Positions 21,065-58,340 of a DNA stretch of 64,000 nt are shown here, piece after piece. Origin of the DNA: Micromonospora sonchi (lineage in GTDB: Bacteria; Actinomycetota; Actinomycetes; Mycobacteriales; Micromonosporaceae). The first letter of the stretch is position 1. Each line of letters starts with the position of its first letter. The stretch lies in NCBI RefSeq assembly GCF_014646235.1, contig NZ_BMNB01000005.1, forward strand, positions 186,001 through 250,000, read 5' to 3'. A program made the translations under genes and the position numbers. The notes below the pieces were generated by a model. The model worked only from the letters and a program-made list of their open reading frames with translations, did not search any database and had not been told where the DNA came from.

Positions 21065-21887
21065 CACTTTGCTTGACGATGTCGCCGGGCTGCTGCGGGA
21101 GACCGCGGCCCGGGTCGTACTGCCGTTCTTCCGCCGCCTCGACGAGGCCGACGTGGCCGAGAAGGCCCCTGGTGAACTGGTCACCGTCGCCGACCGCAAG
21201 GCCGAGGAGATGATCACGGACGGGTTGCGCCGGCTGCGGCCGGGTTCGGTCGTGGTCGGCGAGGAGGCGGTGGCGGACGATCCTGACCTGCTACGCCATC
21301 TGCGCGGCGGGGGCGACGTGTGGCTCGTCGACCCGATCGACGGTACGGCGAACTTCGCGGCGGGGCGCTGCCCGTTCGCGCTGATGGTCTCCCTGCACAC
21401 CGACGGCGAGCCGGTGGCCGCCTGGGTGTACGACCCGCTGGCCGGGACGCTGGCCACCGCCCGGCTCGGCGAGGGCGCCTACCTGGACGGCCGCCCGCTG
21501 CGGCTGCCGCCCGCGCCGCCGATCGGCGAGCTGCGCGGCGTCGCGATGACGAAGTTCCTTCCGCCGGCCGCGCGCCGGACGGTCGAGTCCGGCGGACGAC
21601 TGGTCGGCGAGTTGCTGCCGGGTCAGCACTGCGCCGGCCGCGAGTATCTCGACCTGCTCACCGGCCGGCAGCAGTTCGCCATCTTCTGGCGCACCCTGCC
21701 CTGGGACCACGGCCCCGGCACGCTGCTGGTCCGGGCTGCCGGCGGCGTCGCCCGCCGTTTCGACGGCACCGACTACCACCCCACCGACTACCACCCCACC
21801 ACCACCCACCACGGCCTCCTGGTAGCCGTCACCCCCGACGTCTGGACCCAGGTCCGCCAGGCCCTCCTCCCGACCTTCGCGCGTTGA
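21057..21887 (+). CDS. Inositol monophosphatase-family phosphatase
   Basis: 276 residues. Motifs of the lithium-sensitive phosphatase family are present: GEEAVADD (metal Glu), [15 protein letters not shown] (metal Asp and catalytic Thr) and [17 protein letters not shown] (third metal Asp). The exact substrate (inositol phosphate, histidinol phosphate, PAP or a sugar phosphate) cannot be told. GTG 21057 overlaps the receiver gene by eight bases, so it belongs to the signalling operon, which is unusual. The stop codon (21885-21887) is inside the left arm of a 27-bp inverted repeat, and the last codons before it carry [14 protein letters not shown], rich in CCACCCC-like DNA. Confidence 0.9.
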
Positions 21888-21946
21888 TCATGAGGTTAGC
21901 GGCAGTTTGAAGATCGACGACTGCCGCTAACCTCATGATCAACGCG
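21880..21946. repeat. Perfect 27-bp inverted repeat over a stop codon
   Basis: Arms 21880-21906 and 21920-21946 match exactly around a 13-bp loop. The core arm GTTGATCATGAGGTTAGCGG recurs in the 63781-63843 hairpin. The stop codon of the phosphatase gene lies in the left arm. G-rich DNA follows (21950-22020). It may end transcription, but the long shared arms suggest a copied or mobile element. Confidence 0.92.
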
Positions 21947-39173: not shown

Positions 39174-39196
39174 CCCCACCCCCACCCCCACCCCGG

Positions 39197-39265
39197 CGAT
39201 CTTGCACTTTTGGTCGGGGTAAAAGGGGTGAATGATCTGTATCGGCGACACAAAGTGCAAGATCG
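39197..39265. repeat. 14-bp inverted repeat with C/G-tract flanks
   Basis: Arms 39197-39210 (CGATCTTGCACTTT) and 39252-39265 enclose a 41-bp loop. A CCCCACCCC tract lies upstream (39173-39195) and a GGGGTGGGGT tract downstream (39275-39310), so the complementary region extends outward imperfectly. It begins 24 bp after the RecQ-like stop. It has the same plan as the 63781-63843 element, but a different arm sequence. Confidence 0.85.
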
Positions 39266-39334
39266 GCGAAGGATCGGGGGTGGGGTGGGGTGGGGTGGGA
39301 GGGGACGGGGAGGGGCGGCGATACGGTGGGGACC

Positions 39335-55422: not shown

Positions 55423-56868
55423 ATGGGCGCGCCGCCGGGTGGATCCGGCTCACCACCACCCGCCGCCGCGCCGGGGGTGCTGCCGCGCGGGGTGCACGTC
55501 GGATACTCCCTCGGCTCGCTGGCCACCGGTGCGTTCGGCACCGTGCCGGGGCTGTTGCTGCTGCCGTACCTCACCGACACCCTCGGCGTGGCCGCCGGGA
55601 TGGCGGCCCTGCTGGTGCTGCTGCCGAAGGCGTGGGACGTGCTGGTCAACCCGGTGGCCGGGCGGATCTCCGACCGCACCCGCTCCCGCTGGGGTGCCCG
55701 CCGGCCGTACCTGCTGATCGGTGGGCTGGCGCTGGCCGGGCTGTTCGGGTCGATCTTCGCCGCGCCGTTCGGCGCCGGACCCGCCGCCGCCGCGTACGTG
55801 GCGGTCGCCTTCCTGGCCACCGCCACCGCGTTCGCCTTCTTCCAGGTCCCGTACGTGGCGATGCCGGCCGAGCTGACCAGCGACTACGCCGAACGTACCC
55901 GGATGATGACCTGGCGGATCGCGGTGCTGGCGCTGGCCATCCTGGTCTCCGGGGCGGTGGCCCCGCTGGTGCGCGACGCGGCCGGCGGGGGCGTGCCGGG
56001 ACACCGCTGGATGGGGCTGTTCGTCGCGGCACTGATCGCGCTCGGCGCGGTCGGGGCCTTCCTCGGCACCCGGTCCGCCCCGCAGGGCACCACCGGGGAG
56101 AGCGAGCCCAGCCTGCGTGCCCAGCTCGCGGTGGCCGGCCGCAACCGGCCGTTCCGGGCGTTGCTGCTCTGCTTCGTGGTGCAGTCCGCCGGGGTGGCGA
56201 CGATCCTCGCCGGGGTCCAGTACTTCGCCGACCAGATCCTGGGCGACTCGACGACCGGGCCCACCCTGCTGTTCGTCTGTTTCGTCGGCCCGGCCCTGGT
56301 GGTGATGCCGCTGTGGTCCCGGGTCGGCGCCCGGCTGGGCAAGCTCGCCGGCCTGGTGGCCGCGTCGCTGATCCTGGCCGCCGGCGGGCTGGCCCTGGTC
56401 GCCGCGCCGGTGCTGCCCGCGCCCGTGATCTACCTGCTGGTCGCGTCGGTCGGCGTCGGGTACGCCGGGCAGCAGGTCTTCGCGCTGGCCATGCTGCCGG
56501 ACTGCATCGCGTACGACACGGCGCGCACCGGGCGTCGACAGGCCGGCGTCTTCACCGGGCTGTGGACGGCCGGCGAGACCTTCGGGCTGGCCCTCGGCCC
56601 GGGCATCTACGGGTTGGTGCTCGCCCTCACCGGATACGTCTCCTCCACCACCGGCACGGCCGCCGCCCAGTCCGACACCGCCCGCCTCGGCGTGCTGCTC
56701 GGCTTCACCGTGCTACCCGCCCTCCTCGTGGCCCTGGCCATCCTCCTTCTCCGCCCCTACGACCTCACCGAGGCCCGCCTCGCCACCCTCACCACCGCCG
56801 CCGATCATGGAGTTGTGGTCGGGACAAAAGCCGCTAATCAGCACGCAAAGGGGACCACAAGTCCATGA
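55423..56868 (+). CDS. MFS transporter (GPH sugar/cation symporter type)
   Basis: 481 residues, 12 predicted membrane spans. SDRTRSRWGARRPYLLIG is the GPH/MFS loop 2-3 motif; MPAELTSDYAERTRMMTWR is also typical of the GPH branch. It should import a sugar or glycoside with a cation, substrate unknown. The final 22 residues (ADHGVVVGTKAANQHAKGTT and two more) come from an inverted repeat at 56802-56871, so the natural C-terminus may have been replaced. The stop overlaps the decarboxylase start (ATGA). Confidence 0.88.
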   Translation: MGAPPGGSGSPPPAAAPGVLPRGVHVGYSLGSLATGAFGTVPGLLLLPYLTDTLGVAAGMAALLVLLPKAWDVLVNPVAGRISDRTRSRWGARRPYLLIGGLALAGLFGSIFAAPFGAGPAAAAYVAVAFLATATAFAFFQVPYVAMPAELTSDYAERTRMMTWRIAVLALAILVSGAVAPLVRDAAGGGVPGHRWMGLFVAALIALGAVGAFLGTRSAPQGTTGESEPSLRAQLAVAGRNRPFRALLLCFVVQSAGVATILAGVQYFADQILGDSTTGPTLLFVCFVGPALVVMPLWSRVGARLGKLAGLVAASLILAAGGLALVAAPVLPAPVIYLLVASVGVGYAGQQVFALAMLPDCIAYDTARTGRRQAGVFTGLWTAGETFGLALGPGIYGLVLALTGYVSSTTGTAAAQSDTARLGVLLGFTVLPALLVALAILLLRPYDLTEARLATLTTAADHGVVVGTKAANQHAKGTTSP

Positions 56869-56871
56869 TCG
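56802..56871. repeat. 19-bp inverted repeat spanning the MFS stop and the decarboxylase start
   Basis: Arms 56802-56820 and 56853-56871 pair at 18 of 19 positions around a 32-bp loop. The left arm and loop encode the end of the MFS protein, and the right arm holds both its stop and the next gene's ATG (56865). It shares its plan with the other stop-codon hairpins, though the arm sequence differs. Confidence 0.88.
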
Positions 56872-58340
56872 ACGAAGACCGGGCGGCGCTGCCCGCGCAC
56901 GGGGTGTCCGCCGAGCGGGTGTTGGGGGAGATCCGGGAGTTGCGGGGGTTGGATCGGCCCACGCATGGCGGGCGGCTGTTCGCGTATGTGTACGACCCGG
57001 GAGTGGCGGGGCTGGACGAGCTCGCGGCCGCCGCGTACGCCGAAAGTGCGCACGTCAACGGGCTCGATCCGACCGCCTTCCCCTCGCTGCTGGCGATGGA
57101 GAACGCGCTGGTCGGTGCGGCTGCGCGGGTGCTCGGCGGCGGGCCCGGCACGAGCGCGCCGGAGGCGGTCGGCAGCGTCACCAGTGGCGGCACCGAGTCG
57201 CTCATCCTGGCCGTCAAGGCGGCCCGGGACGCCCGGCCGGAGATCGACGCCCCCCGGGTCGTGGTGCCGGCCAGTGCCCACGCCGCGTTCGCCAAGGCGG
57301 CGCACTACCTGCGGGTGGAACTCGACGCGGTGCCCCTGGACCCGGTGACGCTGCGGCCGGCGGTCGCCGACGTGGCCGCCGCGATCCGGCCGGAGGCGGT
57401 CCTGGTGGCCTGCTCCGCGCCGTCGTACGCGCACGGCGTGGTCGACCCCGTCGAGCAGATCGCACAGGTGGCCGCCGCAGCCGGGGTGCGGTGCCACGTG
57501 GACGCCTGCTTCGGCGGCTGGACCCTGTCGTATCTGCGCCGCCTCGGCGTGCCGGTGCCCGCGTTCGACTTCGCCGTACCCGGGGTCACCTCGATCTCCG
57601 TCGACCTGCACAAGTACGCGTACGCCCCGAAGGGCGTCTCGGTGCTGCTGCACCGCGATGCCGGGCTGCGGGCGCCGCAGTACTTCGCGTACGCCGACTG
57701 GCCTGGCTACACCATGGTCAACCCGGTGATCTCCTCCACCCGCTCCGGCGGCCCGATCGCCGCCGCGTACGCCACCCTGCGACACCTCGGCGACGACGGC
57801 TACCTGGAGCTGACCCGCCGAACCTGGGCGGCGGTGCGGGCCCTGGCCGACGCGGTGCGCGGCGTCGACGGGCTGCGGCTGGTCGCCGAGCCGGAGTCGA
57901 CCGTCGTCTGCCTCACCTCGACCGATCCGGATCTGGACCTCTTCGTGCTGGTCGACGAGCTGACCGCACGCGGCTGGCACACCCAGCCCCAGCTCGCGTA
58001 CGCCGGGCTGCCGCGCAGCGTGCACCTGACGGTGACCGCCGCGGTAGCGCCCCGGGTGGCGGAGTTCGGGACGGCCCTCGCCGAGGCGGCGGCCGGGGCG
58101 CGGGCCACCGGTCCGGTGGTGCTGCCACCGGAACTGCTGGCGCTCGCCGGCAGCCTCACCCCGCAGGCGCTCACCCCGCAACTGGTCGCCGAGCTGGCCG
58201 ACGGGCTCGGCCTGGTCGGCCGGCCCGGGCCACCGGACCGGATGGCGGTGGTGAACACCCTGCTCGACGCCGCCCCGGTGCCGCTGCGGGAACGGCTGTT
58301 GGTGGAGTTCGTCGGGCTGCTGCAACGCCCGACCTGGTAG
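56865..58340 (+). CDS. PLP-dependent decarboxylase/lyase (group II, sphingosine-1-phosphate-lyase-like)
   Basis: 491 residues. VTSGGTESLILAVKAARDA binds the cofactor phosphate; HVDACFGGWTLSYLRR holds the cofactor Asp; SVDLHKYAYAPKGVSVLL holds the Schiff-base Lys. The overall pattern is that of the glutamate-decarboxylase/S1P-lyase group. Substrate unknown. ATG 56865 lies in the right arm of the inverted repeat, which could hide the ribosome site (AAAGGGGA in the loop, about 56846-56853). It overlaps the MFS gene by four bases and is followed by a strong hairpin. Confidence 0.88.
   Translation: MIDEDRAALPAHGVSAERVLGEIRELRGLDRPTHGGRLFAYVYDPGVAGLDELAAAAYAESAHVNGLDPTAFPSLLAMENALVGAAARVLGGGPGTSAPEAVGSVTSGGTESLILAVKAARDARPEIDAPRVVVPASAHAAFAKAAHYLRVELDAVPLDPVTLRPAVADVAAAIRPEAVLVACSAPSYAHGVVDPVEQIAQVAAAAGVRCHVDACFGGWTLSYLRRLGVPVPAFDFAVPGVTSISVDLHKYAYAPKGVSVLLHRDAGLRAPQYFAYADWPGYTMVNPVISSTRSGGPIAAAYATLRHLGDDGYLELTRRTWAAVRALADAVRGVDGLRLVAEPESTVVCLTSTDPDLDLFVLVDELTARGWHTQPQLAYAGLPRSVHLTVTAAVAPRVAEFGTALAEAAAGARATGPVVLPPELLALAGSLTPQALTPQLVAELADGLGLVGRPGPPDRMAVVNTLLDAAPVPLRERLLVEFVGLLQRPTW

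Follow-up and report, generated by a model that had tools for sequence, protein, structure and literature searches.

The window, the whole 64,000-nucleotide stretch of Micromonospora sonchi DNA that we analysed, contains a transporter gene and a decarboxylase gene whose open reading frames overlap as ATGA, with a palindromic repeat lying across the overlap. Two models of the repeat are used below: R1 was built from 13 other copies in the same genome (G000) with the junction copy excluded, and R2 from 44 junction hairpins; the E-values of both are rough. The features are as follows.

55423..56868, + strand: GPH/MFS-type transporter gene (Pfam MFS_2, 1.2e-90, residues 27-450)
56865..58340, + strand: PLP-dependent decarboxylase gene (Pfam Pyridoxal_deC, 5.3e-18)
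56799..56874, + strand: whole 76-nt palindromic repeat unit (R1 end-to-end match and inverted repeat)
56799..56820, + strand: 5′ arm, coding for ADHGVVV, the start of the repeat-coded transporter tail
56821..56852, + strand: loop, its first part like the dispersed copies (GGGACAAAAGCCGC after the arm; R1 consensus, alignments A1 and A2)
56847..56853, + strand: AAAGGGG, resembling a Shine-Dalgarno sequence, 11 nt ahead of the ATG and largely within the loop (read from the sequence)
56853..56874, + strand: 3′ arm, containing the decarboxylase ATG (56865-56867) and the transporter TGA (56866-56868)
39194..39268, + strand: second R1-family copy in the window (R1, 72.8 bits), between two tandem genes

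The start of the transporter is uncertain, a simple codon-usage caller placing it at 55477, and the protein also matches TIGR00792 over residues 26-456 with a score under the cut-off of that model. Matches to the decarboxylase were found in 94 of the 101 genomes of the genus.

The original prediction of an inverted repeat at this junction was borne out by an inverted-repeat search, which returned two 22-nt arms, 91% complementary (20 of 22 positions paired) and separated by a 32-nt loop, at 56799-56874. This is the same repeat as had been placed at 56802-56871, although each of those ends falls 3 nt inside the true limits. When the upstream regions of 90 orthologues were shuffled letter by letter, 20 times each (1,800 in total), no 22-mer at any position formed more than 17 pairs. 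The predicted RNA fold of positions 56780-56900 (121 nt) has an energy of -47.7 kcal/mol (z = -2.65; one of 200 shuffles as good) and that of the 76-nt unit alone -35.3 kcal/mol, and a search of Rfam gave only two chance miRNA matches, below the gathering score. Read against the two open reading frames, the unit takes in the final 22 codons of the transporter, the ATGA and then TCGACG, so the last 22 residues of the transporter and the first codons of the decarboxylase do lie within it, as had been proposed. It had further been claimed that the repeat replaced the C-terminus of the transporter. The repeat does code for part of the tail, but "replaced" is too strong a word, because the conserved transporter domain finishes near residue 450-456, with the repeat-coded tail beyond it, and the tail past the domain is highly variable among orthologues, whether they carry the repeat or not.

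The junction hairpin is one copy of a dispersed family of 76-nt palindromes. R1 matched the junction over positions 1-76 of 76 with 72.3 bits, the loop stretch CGGGACAAAAGCCGC included, and this end-to-end match upholds the earlier proposal that a repeat joined an old gene junction. A first search of the M. sonchi genome with the junction unit returned 22 matches, and many of those fetched were hairpins with GATC-containing arms and a loop similar to that of the junction; R1 found at least 79 distinct places in this genome. In a test of R1 on junctions from 42 sources, the window and all 24 hairpin-bearing orthologues matched (22-69 bits for the orthologues), as against none of the 17 hairpin-less orthologues at E below 0.01. 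Across the genus, where stricter filters were applied, R1 had matches at E 1e-10 in at least 70 and R2 in at least 66 of the 101 genomes, and at the looser E of 1e-6 R1 had matches in 23 of 61 genomes and 17 of 44 genera of the sampled taxonomic family. The arm type varies by genome: among the copies read, it was GCACTTT in G000 and GGAGTTGTGGTG in G093, and both GCACTTT and GCAGTTGTGGC arms were present in G058. No description of the repeat family was found in the literature searched (listings and passages); in PMC5765111, "palindromic" is used solely for CRISPR.

Genomic placement was examined for 56 of the 78 or more other places in the M. sonchi genome, with genes from the simple codon-usage caller. 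Since 54 of these 56 copies overlap no called gene (L009 and L013 each overlap one), the position of the junction copy within two coding genes is unusual. Classed by their nearest called genes, 30 copies (L009 and L013 among them) lay between convergent genes, 18 between tandem and 6 between divergent genes, with 2 at an edge, whereas the adjacent gaps without a copy were convergent in 8 cases, tandem in 51 and divergent in 10. Convergent placement was enriched among the copies both against all adjacent gaps (30 of 54 with edges excluded versus 8 of 69, Fisher p = 2e-7) and against gaps of at least 40 nt (30 of 54 versus 5 of 49, p = 1e-6). The second copy in the window, at 39194-39268, sits in C-rich/G-rich flanks. 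R1 finds the unit in the corresponding loci of 4 of 13 relatives, and 7 have the gap without the unit; the site in L198 retains the C-rich and G-rich flanks alone, and in G036 the locus is interrupted, the halves lying apart with a separate match between them. Filled and empty sites differ by the unit plus the C-rich and G-rich flanks, and comparing them by eye revealed no evident target-site duplication of the kind expected of a MITE.

In several respects the family resembles REP and REPIN sequences, which in PMC3733652 and PMC3116915 are likewise described as high-copy palindromes, mostly outside genes with some inside, often between convergent genes and with families that differ between lineages. 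As defined in PMC3733652, REPs of the GTAG and CGTC super-families are palindromes of 20-40 bp that carry an unpaired tag, GTAG or CGTC, at one of their ends, the CGTC type having a stem of 8-9 bp and a loop of 4-5 bp. The unit here is longer (76 nt, with 22-nt arms and a loop of about 32 nt) and has no unpaired GTAG or CGTC tag, its CGTC-type end being symmetric with its CGACG-type end, and membership of these super-families was rejected on unit, arm and loop length and on the tag; the same text mentions untagged REP-like families for other bacteria. Mobilisation of the REPIN/RAYT kind was also rejected as a candidate: a search for Y1_Tnp in five genomes found the domain in two, with none in the copy-rich genomes G093 and G058, and no R1 match lay near the six Y1 loci examined (of 15 matches listed). 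Palindromic repeats read in frame inside genes are described in PMC2229807 for the Rickettsia palindromic elements and other MITE-type repeats. The likeness is that of a palindromic repeat translated within a host protein and tolerated; the difference is that the unit here joins two overlapping genes and pairs the start codon of the second.

We read 90 orthologous junctions from the 94 genus genomes with the decarboxylase, scoring a hairpin where at least 16 of 22 pairs formed at a fixed offset. By this rule the hairpin is in the same place in 44 of the 90, and in 45 with L087, which was added by hand for a one-base deletion in an arm; L095, with 16 pairs at the right offset, 11 of them Watson-Crick, and no family likeness, was excluded by hand, and L117 duplicates L075. 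In the four unfetched orthologues (G008, G071, G086 and G094), R2 matches the projected start or a place close to it. Position is identical, and length nearly so, in all 44 aligned hairpins. Among the 45 hairpin orthologues, the transporter stop falls at the ATGA in 20, in the loop 27 nt upstream in 23 and elsewhere in 2. The ATGA overlap is nevertheless independent of the repeat, because it is shared by 20 of the 45 hairpin-less orthologues (one as GTGA) and by two loci of another genus, L121 and L126. Of 27 outgroup loci, 4 (L121, L123, L126 and L127) have ATGATCGACG close to where the start is projected and 8 have ATGATCGA there, so that the ATGATCGACG start is probably, though not certainly, older than the repeat. 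The idea that the repeat made the junction finds no support in these shared overlaps and outgroup starts. Within the genus, ATGATCGA marks the start in 44 of the 45 orthologues with a hairpin versus 17 of 45 others, the latter a count in which one large hairpin-less clade weighs.

In a protein tree of the decarboxylase that included outgroup genera (a quick search with several weakly supported branches, from which outgroup loci L136-L144 and those with no transporter match, L130, L133 and L137, were excluded), the hairpin is scattered over the genus, with at least 16 state changes. Half-decayed hairpins are visible by eye in L034, L040, L050, L072, L079 and L109. Given the identical position, the near-identical length and these half-decayed forms, we favour one early gain of the hairpin followed by many losses, and infer a capture event and a single origin; no clean empty junction site was found just below the gain on the tree. 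An orthologue with the same tail and overlap in the absence of the hairpin would count against the original prediction, and L034 is in part such a case, keeping the loop-coded tail GTKAAEPHGKGTTTP and the ATGA with the 5′ arm gone. It is surrounded by hairpin species on the tree, however, and is therefore probably a loss. Over the 90 orthologues, a junction hairpin and at least three family rows in the genome occurred together in 40, family rows only in 20, the hairpin only in 5 and neither in 25, an association that was not significant on independent pairs, which are too few for power.

That the repeat pairs the decarboxylase start region, as originally proposed, agrees with the predicted fold, which closes the start codon. 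The mean predicted probability of the start codon being unpaired is 0.14 in the 45 hairpin orthologues versus 0.48 in 43 others (L090 and L098 were dropped for want of a usable start where one was projected), and the median predicted opening cost is 16.1 versus 6.6 kcal/mol (21.8 for the window), a contrast that is partly built in, as the hairpin group was selected by pairing. AAGG precedes the start by 13 nt in 39 of the 45 orthologues with a hairpin versus 11 of 43 others.

In one form of translational coupling, a downstream start is hidden in a stem that is opened by the upstream ribosome. The junction studied here is similar in combining an ATGA overlap with a predicted stem over the downstream start. 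It differs from known couplers in that a dispersed repeat supplies the stem and in that only about half of the orthologues have it. We consider it fairly probable that a dispersed REP-like 76-nt repeat was captured early at this junction and has been inherited with losses, with coupling as a side effect. The palindrome would have become part of the boundary between the two genes early in the history of the genus, with its right end coinciding with the ATGATCGACG start of the decarboxylase, and would mostly have been inherited in place, with sequence drift and many losses. In the mRNA, the hairpin would close the decarboxylase start codon and leave AAAGGGG mostly in the loop. Ribosomes translating the transporter would traverse the 5′ arm and then reach a stop codon, which is in the ATGA in one class of species and 27 nt further upstream, within the loop, in another, and a ribosome stopped at either place may hold the stem open, so that translation of the decarboxylase would be coupled to that of the transporter. 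Such coupling is most likely to be a by-product that is tolerated, not a switch that selection has favoured, since about half of the species do without the hairpin.

The hairpin could instead be a selected cis-regulatory device that blocks translation of the decarboxylase in the absence of transporter translation and that is maintained for this role, a reading we regard as rather unlikely. The predicted closure of the start in the 45 hairpin orthologues relative to the 43 others, the constant place and near-constant length of the 44 aligned hairpins and the near-universal ATGATCGA start among the hairpin orthologues (44 of 45 versus 17 of 45) are all consistent with such a device, but 45 of 90 orthologues are without the hairpin and the tree requires at least 16 state changes. 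Pairing over the 44 hairpins was 86.4% versus 85.9% in shuffles in which the 3′ letters were redealt (36 of 500 as high), which speaks against maintenance, whereas the covariation score was 0.097 versus 0.086 (11 of 500 as high), a point in its favour; further pair types numbered 19 versus 16.6 (12 of 500) and pairs in which both sides had changed 5 versus 2.9 (25 of 500), and sequence relatedness alone can raise such scores without structure. The pair was kept in 25 of 53 stem transitions (Watson-Crick pairs with the partner unchanged; p = 0.78 versus one half), divided as 17 of 22 in the 3′ arm and 8 of 31 in the 5′ arm, two arms that differ in base make-up so that only the summed test is fair. 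Disfavoured codons are retained in the 5′ arm, as a selected device would lead one to expect (GAT for Asp in 41 of 43 versus 4.8% in the gene body; GTT for Val in 33 of 40 versus 0.8%), yet its wobble sites have changed at ordinary rates (3, 9, 6, 7 and 4 changes versus a mean of 6.1 at 156 four-fold sites), and for this reason codon retention was rejected as a sign of constraint. Covariation was likewise rejected as proof of selection, the shuffle results being mixed and the event-based test neutral. On balance, the comparison of sequences is mixed and would seem neither to establish selection for pairing nor to rule it out. The translational control suggested in the original prediction is thus possible on structure, but the comparison does not establish that pairing is kept by selection.

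Other histories of the arms were weighed against early capture followed by inheritance. The junction arms of G093 and G058 resemble the dispersed copies of their own genomes, but those of G000 do not, and it is possible from these likenesses that junction arms have been renewed by conversion from other copies rather than plainly inherited. In L043 (G055), both junction arms depart from those of their neighbours toward the GCACTTT type of the dispersed family, which is the expected outcome of conversion from another copy. That the palindrome latches translation in roughly half of the genus, with its arms in some lineages recopied from the genome's own repeats, appears improbable to us; if true, it would mean persistence through copying and not through base-pair covariation. 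We find it very hard to credit a local origin of the hairpin, for instance through inverted copying of the native start, with its likeness to the family due to convergence on GATCATG arms. The 3′ half of the hairpin, comprising the ribosome-binding region and start, does have counterparts without a 5′ arm (L098, L105, L108, L111 and L114), and ATGATCGACG starts the gene in the four outgroup loci named above, but copying of a start would not yield an R1 likeness that runs end to end through the loop, and the unit has the same length as the dispersed copies. The unit might instead act, like other copies, chiefly on the 3′ end of the upstream transcript, either terminating transcription or stabilising the mRNA. 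This would suit the enrichment of those copies between convergent genes (30 of 54 versus 8 of 69 adjacent gaps), yet it strikes us as the least plausible of these readings: no T run follows the 3′ arm, and termination would cut off the decarboxylase, which starts inside that arm. An intrinsic terminator was rejected on the missing T run, and a terminator scan, which allows loops of 3-8 and is blind to a loop of 32 nt, found none.

A scattered palindrome can become the coding ends of two proteins and a start-codon hairpin at once, and the 45 junctions with the hairpin, the 45 without it and the several half-decayed forms provide a natural series for testing its effect on translation. The repeat family spans many genera of its taxonomic family and merits a catalogue of its own. 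Palindromes of other types were also seen in this genome. At 21880-21946 of the window lies a different palindrome, GTTGATCATGAGGTTAGCGGCAG..CTGCCGCTAACCTCATGATCAAC; the gene called at 21069-21887 has its stop codon in the left arm, and a sister copy of the palindrome was found in L010 near 611-665. A short perfect hairpin, GGTTGATCATGGAGTTGTTGCC.., is present at 1453-1490 of L024, also from the M. sonchi genome, and is perhaps a third palindrome type with GATCATG ends.
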